Assembly: GCA_949292175.1 (NCBI GenBank)
Contig: CASEYJ010000003.1
Coordinates: 248,001-312,000, forward strand
Length of the DNA stretch: 64,000 nucleotides
Direction: 5' to 3'
From: an uncultured bacterium
GTDB taxonomy: Bacteria; Cyanobacteriota; Vampirovibrionia; Gastranaerophilales; Gastranaerophilaceae
Part shown: positions 1-9,697 of the stretch, in pieces
How the letters are laid out: every line of letters starts with the position of its first letter
How positions within the stretch are numbered: position 1 is the first letter of the stretch
The notes under the pieces: generated by a model
What the model was told of the DNA's origin: nothing
Database searches by the model: none
Seen by the model: the letters and a program-made list of their open reading frames with translations, nothing else
Position numbers and translations under genes: made by a program

Positions 1-969
1 ACAGAACCGATAAAACGTATCAAGCAAATTTCAAATAAAATATGCAAAGGAGAAAAGGTCGATGATGATATAAAAGAGTTTATTCAAAAATTCGGTAATC
101 GATGTATCGGAGAATTAAAACTTGAAACAATTACTTATAAACAAGACCCGTCACTTTTGCAATTCATTATTAATTCATACGTAAAACAGGGAATTATTGA
201 TATTGAAAAAGAATCCCAAAAGGAACAAGAAATTAGACGCAATGCAGAAAAAACCGTAAAAGAAAAAATTAAAAATCCGTTCTTTGGTTTTATATTAAAA
301 AATGCCCGTCTAAGGGTTAAAAACAGAGAAAATCTTCGTTTTGAACGTACAAGATTGTTTGGTTTAGTTAGGGAAATATTTTTAGAACTGGGTAAAAATT
401 TCGCATACGAAAATATTATTGAAACTCAGCGAGATATTTTCTACCTAACAAAAGAAGAAATTTTCAATTATGTATGCGGGACATCTGTTGATATTGATTT
501 AAAAACTATAATCAAAAATCGTAAAGAAGAATATGAAATTTTTAAGAAAAAGAATCTGCCAGACAGATTTACAACGTACGGAGCAGTATATAAGGCAAAT
601 CAATTCATTGTAAATAATATTGCTACTGATATAAAAGGAGATTTATCAGGAATCGGAGCTTGTGCAGGTATTGTCAGGGCAAAAGTTAAAATTGTTCACT
701 CTGTTGAAGAATCCGAAGGATTGGAAAATTGTATAATGGTTGCCGAGCGAACAGATCCTGGTTGGGTCCCATTATTCCCAATTAGTAAAGGGATTTTGGT
801 CGAGCGTGGCAGCATATTATCCCATAGTGCAATTGTGGCAAGAGAAATGGGAATTCCTGCAATAGTTGGGGTAAACAATCTTTTATCAACCTTAAAAGAC
901 GGAGATGAAGTTGAAATGGATGGTTCAACCGGGAAAATAAGGATAATCAGAAATGAGCAAAGGAATTGA
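1..969 (+). CDS. PEP-utilising enzyme (PEP synthase/PPDK-like), 3' part only
   Basis: The frame is open from base 1, so the gene starts left of the window and only its last 322 codons are seen. The C-terminal ~90 residues form the swivelling phosphohistidine domain of PEP synthase, pyruvate phosphate dikinase and rifampicin phosphotransferase: GSILSHSAIVARE carries the catalytic His, followed by GIPAIVGV and a DGDEVEMDGSTG end. In this family the domain carries phosphate between an ATP-grasp domain and a substrate. The N-terminal ATP-grasp half is not visible, so the acceptor (pyruvate or another molecule) cannot be read. The stop overlaps the next gene by 17 nt, and the four following lipid-type genes also overlap, so it is probably part of that pathway rather than a housekeeping PEP synthase. 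Family assignment is firm; the exact reaction is not. Confidence 0.85.
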   Translation, partial: TEPIKRIKQISNKICKGEKVDDDIKEFIQKFGNRCIGELKLETITYKQDPSLLQFIINSYVKQGIIDIEKESQKEQEIRRNAEKTVKEKIKNPFFGFILKNARLRVKNRENLRFERTRLFGLVREIFLELGKNFAYENIIETQRDIFYLTKEEIFNYVCGTSVDIDLKTIIKNRKEEYEIFKKKNLPDRFTTYGAVYKANQFIVNNIATDIKGDLSGIGACAGIVRAKVKIVHSVEESEGLENCIMVAERTDPGWVPLFPISKGILVERGSILSHSAIVAREMGIPAIVGVNNLLSTLKDGDEVEMDGSTGKIRIIRNEQRN

Positions 970-2053
970 AGCACGAGCAAAATTTAATAAAATAAGATAT
1001 GCAAACTGTTGGGAAGATCCTGAACTTTTACTTGAGGGATTTGATAATGGGAAAAAGTACATATCTATAGGTTCTGCAGGAGATAATTCACTATCATTGC
1101 TGATTAAAAATCCAGAAGTTGTCTATGCCGTTGATTTAAGTATTCCGCAAATTGCGTGTTGTGAACTAAAAAAAAATGCAATAAAATTTTTGGATTATGA
1201 AAACTTTTTGAAACTTTTAGGGTTTAAAGCCTGCGATAGTCGTCTTGAAATCTATACATCTATCAAAGAAAATTTGAGTTTACAAAGCAGATATTATTTT
1301 GAACACAATCCTGAGATAATCAAAGATGGAATTATCCAACAGGGGAAATTTGAACATTATTTTCAACTTTTTGCAAATAAAATTATGCCATTAGTTCATA
1401 ATCAGAAAAATTTAACAGAATTATTTTTACCAAAATCTATTCAAGCTCAAAGGATGTTTTATGACAGAACTTGGAATAACTGGAGATTTAAGGCTTTATT
1501 TAAAGTTTTCTTTAACAAATTTGTTATGGGACGTTTAGGCCGAGATAAGGAATTTTTTAAATATGTTGATACGGCAATGATTTCAAAAAACATCAAAGAA
1601 CGAGCAGATAGGGCTCTTCGAGATGTTCCGACTTGGAATAATCCGTACGTAAATTATATTTTATTAAACAATTTTGATTATGCTCTTCCTCATTACGCTA
1701 AAGAAGAAAATTTTGACATAATAAAACAAAATATTGATACTTTGGAAATTAGAACAGGTACAATAAATGAAGTTGCCACAAATTCCGGCATAAAGTTTGA
1801 CGGGTTTAATCTGTCTGATATCTTTGAATATATGGATAAGGACTTGTTTAAAGAAGTTTCTTCTCAATTATTATCGGTTTCAAATATAGGAGCAAAATAT
1901 TGCTATTGGAATATGATGGTAGACAGGCGAATTTCTGAAATTTTACCTGAAAACTTTGAGTATAAAAAAGAATTATCACAAAAACTTTATTTAAAAGACA
2001 AAGCATTCTTTTATAAAGATTTTATTATAGATGAGGTTATAAAAAATGACTGA
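953..2053 (+). CDS. btaA: BtaA-like (DUF3419) SAM:diacylglycerol 3-amino-3-carboxypropyl transferase
   Basis: This 366-aa protein belongs to the DUF3419/BtaA family. It has the family motif YANCWEDP at residues 16-23, a Rossmann-like SAM-binding stretch (YISIGSAGDNSLSLL, from residue 36) and the acidic YAVDLS strand end. BtaA enzymes move the 3-amino-3-carboxypropyl group of SAM onto the free hydroxyl of diacylglycerol, the first step to betaine lipid DGTS. The N-methyltransferase BtaB that finishes DGTS is not visible, so the product here may stop at the homoserine ether or be modified otherwise. The gene overlaps the upstream one by 17 nt and the downstream one by 8 nt, so it is translationally coupled. 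The symbol is used for the family; the true acceptor lipid is an inference. Confidence 0.8.
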   Translation: MSKGIEARAKFNKIRYANCWEDPELLLEGFDNGKKYISIGSAGDNSLSLLIKNPEVVYAVDLSIPQIACCELKKNAIKFLDYENFLKLLGFKACDSRLEIYTSIKENLSLQSRYYFEHNPEIIKDGIIQQGKFEHYFQLFANKIMPLVHNQKNLTELFLPKSIQAQRMFYDRTWNNWRFKALFKVFFNKFVMGRLGRDKEFFKYVDTAMISKNIKERADRALRDVPTWNNPYVNYILLNNFDYALPHYAKEENFDIIKQNIDTLEIRTGTINEVATNSGIKFDGFNLSDIFEYMDKDLFKEVSSQLLSVSNIGAKYCYWNMMVDRRISEILPENFEYKKELSQKLYLKDKAFFYKDFIIDEVIKND

Positions 2054-3170
2054 TTTAATTTGCGGAAGTATAATTTCTTTAATATTTTTATTATTTTTTA
2101 TTATTGCAGAGATTTGCTATAGAAAAGGATTAAATGTTGAAATAACGAGGAAATTTGTTCATTTTGCAGGAGCATTTGTTACTATAATTTTCCCATTTAT
2201 TTTCAAAACACATTGGGCAGTCTTAATTTTGGCAGTATTGTTTTGTGGAGTAATGTTAATAACCAAAAAAACAGGAACACTACAATCTGTACATGCCGTC
2301 GAACGCAAATCTTACGGAGCAATCTATCATCCTATTGCAATATATATCTGCTTTGTGTATTCACAGTTTTTACATCAACCTTGGTTTTATGTTATTTCAA
2401 TTTTAATTCTTGCAGTATCAGATGCTTTTGCGGCACTTGTTGGGAAAAATTACGGTATGAATGAATATATCGTAGAAGTTGGAAGTAAAAAAACGATGGA
2501 AGGTTCATTTACATTTTTTTTAACATCATTTTTAATAACTCATTTAATTTTACTTTTAACAACAACTGTCGGTAAAGTAGAATCCGTTCTGGTGGCACTT
2601 TTAATTGCAATAATTATAACTATATTTGAAAGTGTTAGTTTAAAAGGTGCAGATAATTTATTTATCCCGATTGGAACAATGTTTATTTTATCAAAAAATA
2701 TCCAACCTACAGTTGAAGGAATAACATTCCAGCTGGTGGTATTAATTGCATTTCTGATAAGTTATTTAGTTATAATGCTTCCATATAAACGAATAGGTTT
2801 TTCCGGTGTTGTGCTGCTGGGTTTGATAAATTATATTATCTGGACATTACTAGGTAATATTTACGCTGCAACGCTTGCAATATTTTCATTACTCTGCGCA
2901 AAAACTGATATTATACTGAATTATGATTGCGATGAGGCTGATGCTTATCGAGTAAGACCAATATTTTATATTTTGACGGTTCCAGTTGCTTGTGCATTCT
3001 TGGGAAATTTTATTGGCGCAAAAATAATTTATCCTTTTATAACTTCAATAATTTGTGAAGGTTTTATCATTAAAACAAAATTTTTTAACGGAAATTTAAA
3101 TAAAGGTTTATGGGTAACATCAGTAATTTCGTTAATAGTTTTAGGAGCAAGTTATGTATTTATCAGATAG
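2046..3170 (+). CDS. CTP-dependent lipid kinase-like membrane protein (dolichol/phytol kinase family)
   Basis: A 374-aa polytopic membrane protein, mostly hydrophobic helices. It shows the order of motifs of the dolichol kinase/phytol kinase/CTP-diacylglycerol kinase family: RKFVHFAGAF near the N-terminus, AVSDAFAALVGKNYG, GSKKTMEGS, then a KGADNLFIPIG segment. Members phosphorylate polyprenols, phytol or diacylglycerol with CTP, or resemble CDP-DAG synthases. About 130 extra hydrophobic residues follow the core domain. GAGG lies just upstream of the ATG. Overlaps of 8 nt (upstream) and 17 nt (downstream) place it within the lipid operon, where it could phosphorylate or cytidylylate the lipid used by its neighbours. 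The substrate is unknown. Confidence 0.75.
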   Translation: MTDLICGSIISLIFLLFFIIAEICYRKGLNVEITRKFVHFAGAFVTIIFPFIFKTHWAVLILAVLFCGVMLITKKTGTLQSVHAVERKSYGAIYHPIAIYICFVYSQFLHQPWFYVISILILAVSDAFAALVGKNYGMNEYIVEVGSKKTMEGSFTFFLTSFLITHLILLLTTTVGKVESVLVALLIAIIITIFESVSLKGADNLFIPIGTMFILSKNIQPTVEGITFQLVVLIAFLISYLVIMLPYKRIGFSGVVLLGLINYIIWTLLGNIYAATLAIFSLLCAKTDIILNYDCDEADAYRVRPIFYILTVPVACAFLGNFIGAKIIYPFITSIICEGFIIKTKFFNGNLNKGLWVTSVISLIVLGASYVFIR

Positions 3171-4095
3171 TAAAGATGAATTTTTGAAATTTCCGAAAGA
3201 TTTATACAGAAATGATCCGTTTTATACAACACAATCTGAGGATGTCTCGGATTGTGAAAAACTTTTTATAGTAAAAGAAAATGAAAAAGTTCTTTGTCGT
3301 TTAGGATTTTTTGCCAATGGACAGTTCGGATTTTTTGAGGCTGAAAACAATTTGGAAGCAGTTAAGTTTTTATTTAATCAAGTAAAAACTTACGCCAAAA
3401 CAAAAGGTTATGACTACTTAATCGGACCGATTAACGGTTCTACTTGGAAAAAATACCGAATTACGCTGCCATCAAACAATCCACCATTCTGGCTTGACAA
3501 TTATAACAAACCTTATTATGCGGAATTACTTGAAAATTGTGGATTTGAAACAATTGCAGATTACACATCTTCAATTTGTCGCGACTTAAACAAAGATTAC
3601 TCAAGACTTGAAAAATTTTCATCAATTTTTGAAAAAAAAGGTATAAAAATTCGCAAATTTAATCCTGAAAATTTTGAAGAAGATATCAGAAAAATTTACA
3701 ACATTTCTGTAGATAGTTTTGTGAACAATTTTCTTTATACACCAATAGAATTTGAAGATTTTTATAAAATGTATGAACCGGCAAAAAGCTTTTTAAATCC
3801 GGAGTGGGTTTTGCTTGCGGAAAATGTTGACAATGAAGCAATTGCTTTCATATTTGGTTTTGATAATTTATACAATAAAGATAATAAATCACTTGTAATA
3901 AAGACATTAGCACAAATTTCTGATTACAAATATCGTGGAATAGGATCATATCTGGTAGAATATTTACATCAAAAAGCTCAACTTGCAGGGTATAATAGTA
4001 TTATTCATGCACTTATGCATAAAAATAATGTATCAGCTAATATTCTGTCGGGCGAACTCTACCATAAATATAAACTTTATGGAGTTAAATTATGA
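3154..4095 (+). CDS. GNAT-family N-acyltransferase, lipid operon
   Basis: This 313-aa protein has a GNAT fold at its C-terminus: the acyl-CoA-binding loop reads YRGIGSYLVEYLHQKA, followed by a strand-helix end typical of the superfamily. The N-terminal half (RNDPFYTT, then FGFFEAENN and YDYLIGPINGSTWKK) resembles large two-part bacterial GNAT proteins of unknown substrate. AGGAG precedes the start, which lies within the end of the previous gene (17-nt overlap). The stop overlaps the next start by 4 nt. Beside a BtaA-type enzyme that creates a free amino group, N-acylation of that group is a possible role, but that is inference from position only. Confidence 0.7.
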   Translation: MYLSDSKDEFLKFPKDLYRNDPFYTTQSEDVSDCEKLFIVKENEKVLCRLGFFANGQFGFFEAENNLEAVKFLFNQVKTYAKTKGYDYLIGPINGSTWKKYRITLPSNNPPFWLDNYNKPYYAELLENCGFETIADYTSSICRDLNKDYSRLEKFSSIFEKKGIKIRKFNPENFEEDIRKIYNISVDSFVNNFLYTPIEFEDFYKMYEPAKSFLNPEWVLLAENVDNEAIAFIFGFDNLYNKDNKSLVIKTLAQISDYKYRGIGSYLVEYLHQKAQLAGYNSIIHALMHKNNVSANILSGELYHKYKLYGVKL

Positions 4096-5576
4096 TAAAT
4101 AATATTGTTGAAATTTTATTTAAAAATGCTGAGAAGCATCCTGATAAACTTGCTATTATCCATAAAAATAAAAAAATAACTTACGGGAAATTAGTGCAAG
4201 ATGTAAAAGATTATGCACAGTATTTTTTATCAAAAGGTATAAAAAAAGGTGATAATATATTAATTTTTGTTCCAATGTCGATTGAACTTTATAAAATTCT
4301 TTCCGCTGTTTTTTATGTCGGTGCAACAGCAGTTTTTGTAGATGCTTGGGCTGATAAAAATAGACTTAATCAAGCTTTAACGATTGTTCCCTGCGAAGCA
4401 TTCATTGCTTGTCCGAAAGCTTTTATATTGAAACTAATGAGCAAAAAAGTGCGTGAAGTAGGAATAAATATCATATCAGGAACTATTAAAAAATCAAAAA
4501 GCACCCACCCAATTGAAACAGTAACACCTGATTCAACTGCACTTATAACCTTTACATCAGGTTCAACAGGACTCCCAAAAGCAGCTAAAAGAACTCACAA
4601 ATTTTTGCTGGAACAGCACTATGTACTAAAAAAACACTTAGCACCTTCCTTTGATGATGTTGATTTAACAAGTCTACCTGTTTTTATTCTTCACAATCTT
4701 GCCTGTGGTACAACTTCTGTTATTCCTGATTTTAACCCCCAAAAACCATCGGATATTGACCCTGATAAAATTTTAAAAGATATAAAAAATAATAATGTTA
4801 CTACTTCTGTCGGCTCACCAAGATTTTATGAAAAACTTGCTGAATTTGGGAAAATCAAAGGTTTGAAAAGAATTTTCACTGGTGGAGCTCCTGTTTTCCC
4901 CAAGAACGCCAGACTTTTACAGGAAAATTTCAACGATTGTGATATAGAAATAGTTTACGGATCAACTGAAGCTGAACCGATTGCATCAATTTCAACAAAA
5001 GAATTATTACAGTGTGAAGGTAATGTTAAAGACGGTTTGTATGTTGGAAAACCAATTGAGGATATTAATGTAAAAATTATAAAGCCATCAGATGAACCTA
5101 TTGAAGATTTTGAAAGCACCTGGCTTAGTACAGGTGAAATTGGTGAAATTTGTGTTGAAGGAAAGCATGTCTTAAAAGAATATTATAATAGCGATGAAGC
5201 ACAAAAATTTGCAAAAATTAACTACCAAGGACAAGTTTGGCATAGAACAGGTGATGCCGGATATTTGGATAATGATGGCAGATTATTTCTTATGGGCAGA
5301 GTGAAAAATCGATTTGTCCATAATAATAAAGACGTTTATGTATTCCCGATAGAAAATGCTTTACTTGAGATTGAGGGTATTGAAATCGGAACAATTCTAA
5401 AAATTGATGAACAAATTATACTTGTTGTAGAAACAAAAATTCCACAGAAAAAACTTGAACGAGAACTTAAAAATTTTGGATTTAATTTTGACAAATTTAT
5501 AATCACAAAAATTCCTCGTGACCCGAGACATAATTCAAAAATTGATTATGATAAGTTAAGAAAAATCCTCTCATAA
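4092..5576 (+). CDS. AMP-forming acyl-CoA/acid ligase (ANL superfamily)
   Basis: A 494-aa adenylate-forming enzyme with all main ANL motifs: the P-loop TFTSGSTGLPKAAKRTH (about residue 153), VYGSTEAEP, WHRTGDAGYLDNDGR with the ribose-binding Asp, GRVKNRF at the hinge, and a C-terminal RHNSKIDYDKL holding the catalytic Lys. It should activate a carboxylic acid with ATP to an acyl-AMP, then pass it to CoA or another carrier. The substrate cannot be read from sequence. The start has a GGAG site and overlaps the GNAT gene by 4 nt. It is the last gene of the operon; its stop codon lies in the loop of a terminator hairpin. Together with the GNAT it could form an activate-and-transfer pair. Confidence 0.85.
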   Translation: MINNIVEILFKNAEKHPDKLAIIHKNKKITYGKLVQDVKDYAQYFLSKGIKKGDNILIFVPMSIELYKILSAVFYVGATAVFVDAWADKNRLNQALTIVPCEAFIACPKAFILKLMSKKVREVGINIISGTIKKSKSTHPIETVTPDSTALITFTSGSTGLPKAAKRTHKFLLEQHYVLKKHLAPSFDDVDLTSLPVFILHNLACGTTSVIPDFNPQKPSDIDPDKILKDIKNNNVTTSVGSPRFYEKLAEFGKIKGLKRIFTGGAPVFPKNARLLQENFNDCDIEIVYGSTEAEPIASISTKELLQCEGNVKDGLYVGKPIEDINVKIIKPSDEPIEDFESTWLSTGEIGEICVEGKHVLKEYYNSDEAQKFAKINYQGQVWHRTGDAGYLDNDGRLFLMGRVKNRFVHNNKDVYVFPIENALLEIEGIEIGTILKIDEQIILVVETKIPQKKLERELKNFGFNFDKFIITKIPRDPRHNSKIDYDKLRKILS

Positions 5577-5588
5577 AGAGAGGATTTT
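5562..5588. terminator. Bidirectional terminator between lipid operon and aas-like gene
   Basis: An 11-bp perfect stem (AAAATCCTCTC / GAGAGGATTTT) encloses a 5-nt loop. The arms begin with A and end with T, so either transcript ends in U residues. The TAA stop of the ligase gene is in the loop and the convergent gene stops 5 nt beyond. Confidence 0.8.
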
Positions 5589-5592
5589 AAAT

Positions 5593-8500
5593 TTATAAAC
5601 TCTCATACCATTCTTTTAAATCTTTTCTTTTAACTTTTCTTGTTGAAGTCTTTGGCAGCTCATCACGATGAAGCACCACAACAGTCGGAGTTTTATATGG
5701 TGCTAAGTTTGCTTCAGATAGGCGTTTCACTTCTGCTTCAAGCACCTCTTGAATTTCCTTGTCTGATTTTTTTGCAAGTTCATCAGATGGTGTTATAATT
5801 ACTCCGACTTCTTCTGTTCCTGCTTTATTTCCGGATTTTATCATTAAAGACATTACACAAAGTTCTTTAATAAGTTCTGAAGTTTCTAATACTGCTTCAA
5901 CTTCTTCCGGGAAGATTTTTTTGCCACCGCCAAGAACTATCATATTCTTAATTCGACCTGTAATTTTGATAAATCCTTGTTTGTCAATTTCGCCAATATC
6001 ACCTGTATGAAACCAACCGTCTTCATCAATAACTTCTTTAGTCATTTCTGGTTTACCGTAATATCCTTGCATAACGTTTGGTCCTGTTGCAAGAATTTCT
6101 CCGTTATCAGAAATTTTTACCATTACCGAAGGCAAAGGTTGACCAACTGTTCCTATTTTTGAATGCCCGTAACGATTAGTTGAAATTGTCGGAGAAGTTT
6201 CTGTTAAACCATACCCTTGAAATATAGGAATACCTATTCTGTCAAAAAATTCTGCGACATTATCCTCTAAAGGAGCACCACCACAGATAAAACACTCTAA
6301 TCTTCCTCCCAAACCATCAATTACCGATTTAAACATCAAACGACGAATCTTGCGTGGCATAAATTTTGCAAAAGAATAAAATATTTTAAACGCTTTTTGT
6401 GCAGTTTCAGGCTGCTTTTTTATCTGTTTATCAATACTGTTTTTAAACATTTTTGCAACAAGAGGAACCACAATCATATTTGTAATTCTTTTTTCTTTCA
6501 TTGTTGTTGCAAGTTCTTTGGGATTTAAAGATTTTATATAAACTATTTTTGCCCCCAAATAAAGCATTCCAAAAAATCCACAATCTAATTCCAGCAAATG
6601 ATTTAAAGGCAAAATTGAAAGCAGAGTATGCTCATGTGTAATTTTGAACATAGTTTCAAAATCACGAAGTTGAGAATATATATTCCCAAAACTAATCATA
6701 ACACCTTTTGGATTACCGGTTGTGCCTGATGTATAAACAATCAGGGCGGTTTCATCCAACGATCTTGGTCTTCCCAAATCTTTTTCTATATCCGTTCCTA
6801 AATCGGACACAGACGGTATTTCTTTATGTTCTCTTTCTTCGTTATCAAGAACAAATATCTGATCAATGGATTTTACATTGTTTTTAACTTCCAGAGCATG
6901 TTCTAGATAATGACTTGAACAAAACAAAATCCTAGGGTTGCAGTCGTTTAAGATATGCGTATGCTCCGGTACTGTAAGTTTTACATCTAAAGGAACCGTA
7001 ATTGCACCTGTTTGAATAGATGCAAACATTCCAATAGAAAATTCAGGTCTTGATTCACAAATTATGGCAATTCTTTCCCCACGTTGTATTTTTATTGTTT
7101 CAATAAGATAATTTGCAAATTTTTTAGCCCTTCTTGAAATTTCAAGATAACTTAATTCTTCATATCCGTCTTTTGTTTTTAAAGATAATGCCTTTACCTG
7201 ACCATAAATATCACCTTTTTCTTGCATTAAATCGAGGAAATTTGAATGCAACTTATGATCAATATTATAAAAAGCACGACGTTCGAGTGACTTTTTCATA
7301 AAGTTTATACGAATTTGCAATTCATGTGCAATTTCTTTTTCATCAGAATGAAAATCAGTTATAGGTTGACCAAATTGAATAACAATTGTATTAAATAACT
7401 TAGGGAATTTTCTGGTTTTGCCCCAAGTTTCAAAGCCTCCCTGTATGGCAAAAGGTATAATCGGAGCATTAGTTTCTTTTGCCATTATACCGACTCCTCT
7501 ATTAAATTTACAAATTTCACCGTCAGGCGTAAACTTGCCTTCAGGAAAAATTATTACAGCTTCTCCTGATTTTAATTTTTGATTGGCACTTTCAATTGCC
7601 TCTATGCCTTTACCAAATTTTAAAGGTAAAACATTAAAATATTTTAATAAATGTCTTACAACAGGAGTTTTAAATGCTGCCGGACCAGTCACAAACCACA
7701 ATTGACGATGTGTAGCCATTTGTACAATAAATGGATCTAAATGTCCTGTATGGTTACCGGCAAGGATTACTTTTCCTTTTTTTGGAATATTCTCAGCTCC
7801 TTCAATTCTGTATCTAAAAAGAAGCAAGAAAAGATGCCCCAATGTAGCTTTTAATAAGAAATATCTGAAACTTTTGTCAAAGACTAGCACCAATGCAGCA
7901 AGTACAAATGAAAATAATGCAATTCCTTTAAATACATTCAACGGATTTATAAAACCAATAATAGTTGCAACAATCACTGTTCCAATTAGAAAGCTTAAAG
8001 TACTGGCTGTTAATTGTAAACCAAATATTTTACCTCGGACTCTGTCTGGGGTAATTTTTTGTAAAATGGTATCAAGCATAACAATTATAACAGCATCGGC
8101 CATCCCGATTGGAATAAGCCACATCCAAGCGCTATTGATACTTTGACATAATGGGGCCGTAACAAGAGCAAGACATAGTATGATAAATCCGCTTGCAAAT
8201 AAATGCGGAATTCTCATTATTCTTGCAAAATATATTGTTGCTGCCATACCTGTAATAATACCGATACCTAAAATTGTTCTCAGATAAGTTAAATCACTGA
8301 AGGCTAAGCCATAATAATCAGTAATAAGAGCATTTAAACTATTTGAAAATACAGCAACAATAAATTGCAGACAAATAGCCAGTCCGACAAGATATAATAC
8401 TTTTTTATGTTTTTTTAAATAATTTAATGCCACAGCCATATCGTTTATTTTTTCTCTTGTGGTAAATATATTTTGTTTAATTGAGAATTTGATTAATGCA

Positions 8501-9063
8501 GTAAAAATTGCTCCAATTAAATACATACCACCAATTATTAAAAACGCCTTTTCATTTCCAAGAGTTATCAAATAATTTGCAGCAAAAGCTCCGAATAATA
8601 ACGCAATAACACCAAGTGAAGAAGTAAATGCATTTGCAAATTTTAATTGTTCATTTTTAACAATATTTGTAACAGCAGACATTTTAGCAGGGTAGAAAAA
8701 TGCTGCTCCAATCCCTAAACCAAAAGCAACAATGTAGATTAAATTCTGAGTTAATTGAGGAATAAAGAAAATCATTAAACAAATCGTTACAGCTCTAAAA
8801 AGACAACTTATTGAAAGGATTGCTTTTCTGGAAAATCTGTCACAAAGAACTCCCGAAAACGGACTAACTAGAAATTGCGGCAAAAGAAATATAAAAAACA
8901 TTATAGCAATAGATTTTCCTGTATTTCCCGACATTTGCAAAAGAATAGATACAAACAAAAATTGAACAATTGCATCTGCAAAATGGGAAAAAACTTGACC
9001 AAAAAATAATTTATCAAATTCGAAATTTGCGAATGGCCCAAACTTTTGCTTAATTCCGTTCAT
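5593..9063 (-). CDS. aas: MFS lysophospholipid transporter - PlsC acyltransferase - acyl-[ACP] synthetase fusion (LplT-Aas type)
   Basis: An 1156-aa three-part protein. Residues 1 to ~400 form a 12-helix MFS/LplT-like transporter (DRFSRKAILS loop). Residues ~415-600 are a PlsC-type acyltransferase with the HX4D motif in NHTGHLDP (about 434) and FPEGKFTPDG. The rest is an adenylate-forming ligase with YTSGTTGNPKG (about 777), GYGLTETSP, WFHTGDIGEIDKQG and the C-terminal KTSTRKVKR lysine. Such fusions import lysophospholipid, activate a fatty acid and reacylate the lipid at the inner membrane. GAGGAG precedes the ATG. It faces the lipid operon and shares its terminator, so both may serve membrane lipid remodelling. 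Confidence 0.9.
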   Translation of the reverse strand: MNGIKQKFGPFANFEFDKLFFGQVFSHFADAIVQFLFVSILLQMSGNTGKSIAIMFFIFLLPQFLVSPFSGVLCDRFSRKAILSISCLFRAVTICLMIFFIPQLTQNLIYIVAFGLGIGAAFFYPAKMSAVTNIVKNEQLKFANAFTSSLGVIALLFGAFAANYLITLGNEKAFLIIGGMYLIGAIFTALIKFSIKQNIFTTREKINDMAVALNYLKKHKKVLYLVGLAICLQFIVAVFSNSLNALITDYYGLAFSDLTYLRTILGIGIITGMAATIYFARIMRIPHLFASGFIILCLALVTAPLCQSINSAWMWLIPIGMADAVIIVMLDTILQKITPDRVRGKIFGLQLTASTLSFLIGTVIVATIIGFINPLNVFKGIALFSFVLAALVLVFDKSFRYFLLKATLGHLFLLLFRYRIEGAENIPKKGKVILAGNHTGHLDPFIVQMATHRQLWFVTGPAAFKTPVVRHLLKYFNVLPLKFGKGIEAIESANQKLKSGEAVIIFPEGKFTPDGEICKFNRGVGIMAKETNAPIIPFAIQGGFETWGKTRKFPKLFNTIVIQFGQPITDFHSDEKEIAHELQIRINFMKKSLERRAFYNIDHKLHSNFLDLMQEKGDIYGQVKALSLKTKDGYEELSYLEISRRAKKFANYLIETIKIQRGERIAIICESRPEFSIGMFASIQTGAITVPLDVKLTVPEHTHILNDCNPRILFCSSHYLEHALEVKNNVKSIDQIFVLDNEEREHKEIPSVSDLGTDIEKDLGRPRSLDETALIVYTSGTTGNPKGVMISFGNIYSQLRDFETMFKITHEHTLLSILPLNHLLELDCGFFGMLYLGAKIVYIKSLNPKELATTMKEKRITNMIVVPLVAKMFKNSIDKQIKKQPETAQKAFKIFYSFAKFMPRKIRRLMFKSVIDGLGGRLECFICGGAPLEDNVAEFFDRIGIPIFQGYGLTETSPTISTNRYGHSKIGTVGQPLPSVMVKISDNGEILATGPNVMQGYYGKPEMTKEVIDEDGWFHTGDIGEIDKQGFIKITGRIKNMIVLGGGKKIFPEEVEAVLETSELIKELCVMSLMIKSGNKAGTEEVGVIITPSDELAKKSDKEIQEVLEAEVKRLSEANLAPYKTPTVVVLHRDELPKTSTRKVKRKDLKEWYESL

Positions 9064-9304: not shown

Positions 9305-9697
9305 ATGAAATTTGAAATAAAAGACAAAAATTGGAAAAGATATCATTTATTTTGGCATTATATTAATAATTTGCGAAATGTTCTTAGTTTAACTTGCGAT
9401 ATTGATATAACTGAATTTCTACCTTATATAAAATCTAAAGGTTATAGGTTTTATCCTTCTTTTATGTGGGCAGTATGTAAAATTATTAATGCTCATGAAG
9501 AATTTAGATTAGGCTGGGATGAAAACAATCAAGTTGGAGTGTACGATGTGATTCATCCATATTTTACACATTTTTTTAAAGAAGATGAAATGTGTGCTTT
9601 ATTCGTTGCAGAATATAATGAAAATTTAGAAGTCTTTCATAGTAATTTTGTTGATATAATTGACAAACATAAAGATTGTAGTAAGTTTTTGAAATAA
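9305..9697 (+). pseudogene. Chloramphenicol acetyltransferase (CAT) fragment, C-terminus missing
   Basis: The 130-residue product aligns from memory with the first ~60% of classical CAT proteins (about 215-220 aa): YHLFWHYINN, LTCDIDITEFL, RFYPSFMWAVCKIINAHEEFR, then VIHPYFTHFF. It ends (CSKFLK) before the part that carries the catalytic HHAVCDG motif and the substrate pocket, so it should not acetylate chloramphenicol. No frame in the next 170 nt restores that part. AAGGAT precedes the ATG, so expression signals look intact. A short non-catalytic trimer-forming protein cannot be excluded, but decay is simpler. It sits beside an SMR exporter gene in the same direction. Confidence 0.75.

Follow-up and report, generated by a model that had tools for sequence, protein, structure and literature searches.

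What does a bacterial operon make when it is built around a homologue of the betaine lipid enzyme BtaA and has no BtaB beside it? The question is raised by a 64-kb stretch of DNA (the window, G000:C3:248001-312000) within the 1.63-Mb genome of an uncultured bacterium of the Gastranaerophilaceae. The BtaA homologue belongs to the DUF3419 family, and a protein 100% identical to it is found in a Candidatus Gastranaerophilales metagenome-assembled genome (MAG). In lipids, the aminocarboxypropyl group of S-adenosylmethionine (SAM) has its well-known use in those of the betaine type. We give roughly even odds (a probability of about 0.5) to the reading that the operon encodes a self-contained pathway whose product is N-acylated, is probably a lipid but not a betaine lipid, and carries a 3-amino-3-carboxypropyl (homoserine-ether) unit taken from SAM. 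The observations at the base of this reading are the structure of the operon, the conservation of its gene set, the replacement of its GNAT by a formyltransferase, a gene fusion and the changed pocket of an associated reductase.

Five genes of the operon lie in the window:

1..969, + strand: PEPS, the C-terminal 322 residues of a 792-residue protein resembling phosphoenolpyruvate (PEP) synthase and rifampin phosphotransferase (RPH); PEP-utilizers Pfam domain, PDB match to RPH, SHSAIVARE motif

953..2053, + strand: BtaA-like DUF3419 protein, a predicted SAM-using 3-amino-3-carboxypropyl transferase; PF11899 204.8 bits, own clade in the tree, AlphaFold model with a predicted local distance difference test score (pLDDT) of 93.5

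2046..3170, + strand: CTPK, a membrane protein weakly assigned to the CTP_transf_1 / dolichol-phytol-kinase type; PF01148 24.9 bits (cut-off 24), motifs

3154..4095, + strand: GNAT, a predicted tandem-GNAT N-acyltransferase; PF00583 (Acetyltransf_1) 22.3 bits, which is weak, fold search, homology to a GNAT linked to serine palmitoyltransferase (SPT)

4092..5576, + strand: AMPL, an AMP-forming ligase nearest to PRK09274 / OleC-type enzymes; PF00501 (AMP-binding) 178 bits, NF006754, RHNxKI motif

Successive genes overlap by 17, 8, 17 and 4 nt. PEPS is truncated by the edge of the window, its full start lying outside at G000:C3:246591. Immediately upstream of it, with no gap, is a gene for a 310-residue protein of the UbiA family (L002:9658-10590, equal to G000:C3:245658-246590). 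The abutting gene brings the operon to six genes or more, in the order UbiA-PEPS-DUF3419-CTPK-GNAT-AMPL. A preliminary description of the window had proposed a single operon of five overlapping genes in the order listed, which the open reading frame coordinates and Pfam matches bear out; its extent was drawn too short, as the UbiA-like gene also belongs and a reductase homologue joins in many lineages.

The gene set is found far outside the host's close relatives. Scanning genome contigs with the DUF3419 protein of the window gave 48 loci, in which the six families were then located by tblastn. The same cluster was found by tblastn in Sphingobacterium, Parapedobacter, Saprospiraceae, Flavobacteriales, Cytophagaceae, Kiritimatiellota, Lentisphaerota and Melainabacteria. 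Among the loci retained, the six core families occur together in 62, a count that may include a few near-identical genomes, and 55 of these share one order. The bare six genes are present in 35 loci, a homologue of 3-hydroxy-3-methylglutaryl-CoA (HMG-CoA) reductase (HMGR) stands in front in 20 and the remaining seven are rearranged. The hosts are gut, water and soil bacteria of the Vampirovibrionia, Bacteroidota, Kiritimatiellota and Lentisphaerota, with one Roseinatronobacter plasmid. In Roseinatronobacter sp. S2 the full set is carried on a 137-kb plasmid, HMGR running across the start of the record, and the annotation consists of domain names only.

DUF3419 was found in 40 of 289 sampled genomes of the host's class. 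The strong matches that were read in this class lie in the operon, save for cases at contig edges, the formyltransferase variant described below and one solitary gene. The Bacteroidota sample has a strong match in 12 of 395 genomes. Of the ten newly read among these, six hold the full cluster with HMGR, rearranged in four cases, two hold a partial cluster, one is of a PEMT type and one has a solitary gene. In one genus PEPS and DUF3419 form a single open frame of about 1340 residues (L087 and L092). The conservation of the gene set is far beyond chance, and the operon is functionally coherent and either ancient or repeatedly transferred. No description of it was found in the open-access literature searched; subscription literature lay outside the search, so this is not proof of novelty.

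The DUF3419 protein is the component most directly comparable with a known pathway. Transfer of 3-amino-3-carboxypropyl from SAM is predicted for it from the function of BtaA in the same family (PMC10491745). Six residues (W20, E21, D22, G43, N45 and D61) are common to the operon proteins and the BtaB-linked BtaA proteins. In an IQ-TREE phylogeny of 87 proteins, those of the operon group together in a clade of 76 rows (support 99/97) apart from the BtaA of Rhizobium and Sinorhizobium (L099 and L101; in L099 the adjoining gene is annotated as a methyltransferase), from DUF3419 proteins fused to PEMT and from two further groups. Because the operon clade is separate from BtaB-linked BtaA, even aminocarboxypropyl transfer is inferred by homology. 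A fold search with the model gave weak, generic matches of the SAM-methyltransferase type only, including nicotianamine synthase (E 0.013); these are too weak to assign the transferred group. Sequence searches of solved structures gave no match for DUF3419 or UbiA and chance-level matches only for GNAT.

An ordinary betaine lipid, diacylglyceryl trimethylhomoserine (DGTS), would be made if the DUF3419 protein used diacylglycerol as BtaA does and BtaB were replaced by a methyltransferase that is not linked to the operon. Family membership and the six shared core residues favour this. However, no btaB was found next to the operon: the genes upstream of the window edge are unrelated and belong to other families, so a btaB just beyond the window was rejected, and looking there yielded the rest of PEPS and the UbiA-like gene. 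An unlinked BtaB in the genome was also rejected, the best match being 29% identical over part of the protein (E 1e-6) where a true BtaB gives 50%. A true BtaA-BtaB pair does exist elsewhere in Bacteroidota (L142). The operon differs from the BtaA-BtaB pathway in its separate DUF3419 clade, its lack of BtaB, its five other conserved enzymes and its predicted amine-acylating step, which would cap the amine that trimethylation needs free. Judged from these sequences, membership of the BtaA-BtaB pathway fails on two of the features tested, clade grouping and presence of BtaB, and we consider DGTS a highly improbable product.

DUF3419 is also found in other contexts. In four loci (L043:8248-11201, L045:8248-10086, L046:3159-4987 and L138:8006-10929) a PEMT-type membrane methyltransferase is fused to it or encoded ahead of it and a GNAT comes after it, with a pyridoxal phosphate-dependent decarboxylase next in L043. 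This is possibly another BtaA pathway with PEMT in place of BtaB. A Rhizobium plasmid cluster (L098:858-6176) contains ketoacyl-ACP synthase III, an oxidoreductase, a CoF synthetase and a distant DUF3419, and looks like another natural-product use of the family. Some Vampirovibrionia have a second, very divergent DUF3419 paralogue outside the operon (L095:8930-12460 and L096:1978-3604).

For the chemistry of the acylation step, the strongest evidence in this analysis comes from comparing the GNAT between lineages. In a Verrucomicrobia locus (L034) and a Vampirovibrionia locus (L088) the other five core families are present, GNAT is missing and the cluster contains a protein with a formyltransferase domain (PF00551). 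This domain is absent from all other loci searched. No GNAT of the operon type was found anywhere in the L088 genome, and the only one in the L034 genome is distant and lies outside the cluster. The replacement of GNAT by a formyltransferase in two lineages therefore supports N-acylation of an amine, and the amine is probably acylated. The exchange is a hint that the acyl group is small, and it speaks against N-methylation; it also weakens a long-chain acyl group as the sole option for the GNAT. An N-acylated head group had been proposed in the preliminary description and gains support here. Its other main points, a BtaA-type enzyme without BtaB and a gene set that co-occurs beyond close relatives, held as well, whereas the lipid-hydroxyl acceptor and the phosphorylated product that it had suggested are still conjecture.

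In the fold search the GNAT model came out as a tandem GNAT, close to glucosamine N-acetyltransferase and mycothiol synthase. The protein is homologous (23% identity, E 2e-25) to a Sphingobacterium GNAT encoded between genes for an SPT-like aminotransferase and an epimerase-like reductase, a set that resembles bacterial ceramide gene sets. An N-acyltransferase of ceramide synthesis is known from Caulobacter (PMC11324152). The operon would resemble bacterial ceramide synthesis (Spt, CerR, N-acyltransferase) in its related GNAT and its predicted N-acylated amine. Unlike ceramide synthesis, neither SPT nor CerR is found within the operon, and the carbon unit would derive from SAM rather than from serine.

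PEPS matches RPH in the PDB (5fbs and 5hv2) over two stretches, with similarity along its full length. It has the architecture of an ATP-grasp domain and a phospho-histidine swivel domain, as in RPH and PEP synthase, and the phospho-histidine motif SHSAIVARE is kept. Its C-terminal 322 residues, the only part scored, fall far under the NCBIfam cut-offs for RPH, PEP synthase and PigC. Unlike these families, PEPS belongs to a biosynthetic operon, and one genus has it fused to DUF3419. It may phosphorylate a hydroxyl or carry out a ligation. CTPK is weakly placed with the CTP-dependent membrane kinases: an RKxxH motif is present in all 79 members of the family and KxxEGS/T in 50. DUF92 or another domain was considered for the C-terminal part of CTPK, and none was found in the long forms scanned. 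The UbiA-like protein scores 51 bits against PF01040, above the cut-off, and keeps the first aspartate motif as DExKDxxxD. AMPL scores 387.7 bits against NF006754, under the cut-off of 478, and 234 and 214 bits against the OleC equivalog families, under cut-offs of 900 and 850. It belongs to the OleC-like branch, and its substrate could be the new carboxylate or an acyl donor.

These assignments also bear on another possibility: the product may be a small metabolite that is soluble or secreted, for example a signal or a metallophore. The aminocarboxypropyl group would then be placed on a non-lipid acceptor, and the ligase would form an amide, ester or lactone. AMPL is nearest to the OleC-type beta-lactone synthetases, PEPS scores against the prodigiosin ligases PigC and RedH, and the whole set occurs on a plasmid. 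DUF3419 is also present in unrelated clusters with ligases and in a variant cluster of Ruminococcus. Yet two of the genes, UbiA and CTPK, encode membrane proteins, the set has no conserved exporter with it and the GNAT has a relative in a gene set of the ceramide type. The Sphingobacterium cluster additionally holds genes for a CdsA-like protein and a CDP-alcohol phosphotransferase, which points to a lipid product in that genus. A small metabolite is accordingly judged unlikely, though still a serious contender. The Ruminococcus variant, from rumen MAGs (L038:3014-12891 and L040), consists of PEPS, DUF3419, two AMP-forming ligases, GNAT and an APH-type kinase.

HMG-CoA reductase is the enzyme inhibited by statins. 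Many of the clusters add a class I homologue of it (PF00368 400 bits; match to 6hr7, E 1e-88), which keeps the catalytic residues Glu559, Lys691, Asp767 and His866 in human numbering. Unlike the class I enzymes, however, Ser684 is replaced by Glu in 32 of 32 readable sequences, and in the same 32 position 735 is never Lys, the exact letter there depending on the alignment. Lys735 makes a salt bridge with the carboxylate of HMG, and the cis loop that touches the HMG moiety contains Ser684 (PMC9500038). Six Sphingobacteriaceae genomes have IspH, lack HMG-CoA synthase and have HMGR genes of the Glu684 type only. HMG-CoA synthase was found in two of 18 genomes overall, and in none of the Sphingobacteriaceae genomes tested. 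Four cluster-bearing genomes without IspH carry an additional HMGR; the only one whose residues were read (L053) keeps Ser684 and Lys735. The changed pocket, together with the absence of HMG-CoA synthase from hosts that use the methylerythritol phosphate (MEP) pathway, makes it very unlikely that the cluster homologue makes mevalonate, and a role in mevalonate supply was rejected.

In an isoprenoid pathway, HMGR would provide mevalonate, CTPK and PEPS would phosphorylate a prenol, the UbiA-like protein would transfer the prenyl group and DUF3419 would modify the prenylated product. The HMGR, UbiA and dolichol/phytol-kinase-like families do suggest isoprenoid chemistry. Against it are the missing contacts to the HMG carboxylate, the MEP hosts without HMG-CoA synthase and the loss of the second UbiA motif, although prenylation without mevalonate is still conceivable. 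We regard an isoprenoid pathway as improbable.

HMGR homologues also occur apart from the operon, in L107 and L108. In L108 (8663-10931), where DUF3419 is absent from the surroundings, a Glu684-type homologue lies directly 5' of a sulfotransferase gene, an arrangement which suggests that sulfation of its alcohol product is possible. In a Lentisphaerae MAG (L021:272-7663) the genes upstream of HMGR-DUF3419 are an unusual mix of three radical SAM genes, two of them B12-binding, and a GH3-family gene.

For an N-acylated, SAM-derived lipid we propose the following route, in which all the steps and their order are inferred. The UbiA-like enzyme would prepare a hydroxylated acceptor, which PEPS, CTPK or both would phosphorylate. 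The DUF3419 enzyme would move 3-amino-3-carboxypropyl from SAM onto the acceptor, and the tandem GNAT would acylate the amine so introduced, a formyl group apparently being used instead in two lineages. AMPL would activate the carboxylate. Where present, the HMGR homologue, its pocket re-tuned, would reduce a thioester to an alcohol, and the outcome could be an N-acyl homoserinol ether resembling a ceramide head. More tentatively still, and with doubt outweighing confidence, we suggest that the product represents a new lipid class in bacteria, with a SAM-built N-acylated homoserine- or homoserinol-ether backbone, a serine-free look-alike of ceramide for which some lineages use an HMGR descendant on a different acyl thioester.

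The N-acylated product with a SAM-derived unit is supported by conservation across the 62 loci, including the plasmid, by a BtaA-family enzyme without BtaB, by the homology to an SPT-linked GNAT and by the CdsA-like and CDP-alcohol phosphotransferase neighbours. Several points weigh against it. The SAM loop has Asp44 (GDN) in the operon DUF3419 proteins, where the BtaB-linked and PEMT-fused proteins have Cys (GCN); with this loop and a separate clade, the transferred group could differ. The substrate of the GNAT could be another amine. The second aspartate motif of the UbiA-like protein is absent, with a conserved E..RK...E in its place, so that prenyl diphosphate may not be its substrate. The HMGR homologue is missing from the genome of the window and present in only three of the 289 members of its class, so its step is an accessory one, and a bulky lipid may not fit the HMGR pocket.

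If the reading is true, a lipid or metabolite class would be added to gut Gastranaerophilales, rumen bacteria and cultured Sphingobacterium. The operon, spread over several phyla and plasmid-mobile, appears to turn BtaA-like chemistry to an N-acylated product. The HMGR homologues probably form a subfamily acting on another substrate, and are likely to be annotated as mevalonate enzymes. Cultured Sphingobacterium strains allow direct testing.

Two further features lie at the downstream end of the operon:

5562..5588, no strand: terminator-like bidirectional hairpin spanning the AMPL stop codon; inverted repeat with A/T-rich flanks

5593..9063, - strand: convergent LplT-PlsC-Aas-type fusion of 1156 residues (MFS-PlsC-Aas), a neighbour outside the pathway; open reading frame, Pfam and NCBIfam matches

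The inverted repeat has a folding energy of -14.8 kcal/mol (z -4.1) and is what would be expected of a bidirectional terminator shared by AMPL and the fusion, an arrangement that the preliminary description had recognised. The fusion was rejected as a member of the pathway, as it adjoins the operon only in Gastranaerophilales. On the other side, the genes preceding the operon were read by eye, UbiA excepted, as homoserine dehydrogenase, threonine synthase, an LpxA-like protein and an M29-like aminopeptidase, followed by UbiA. A 130-residue frame at 9305-9697 of the window resembles, also by eye, the N-terminal part of a chloramphenicol-acetyltransferase-type protein and is perhaps a remnant.

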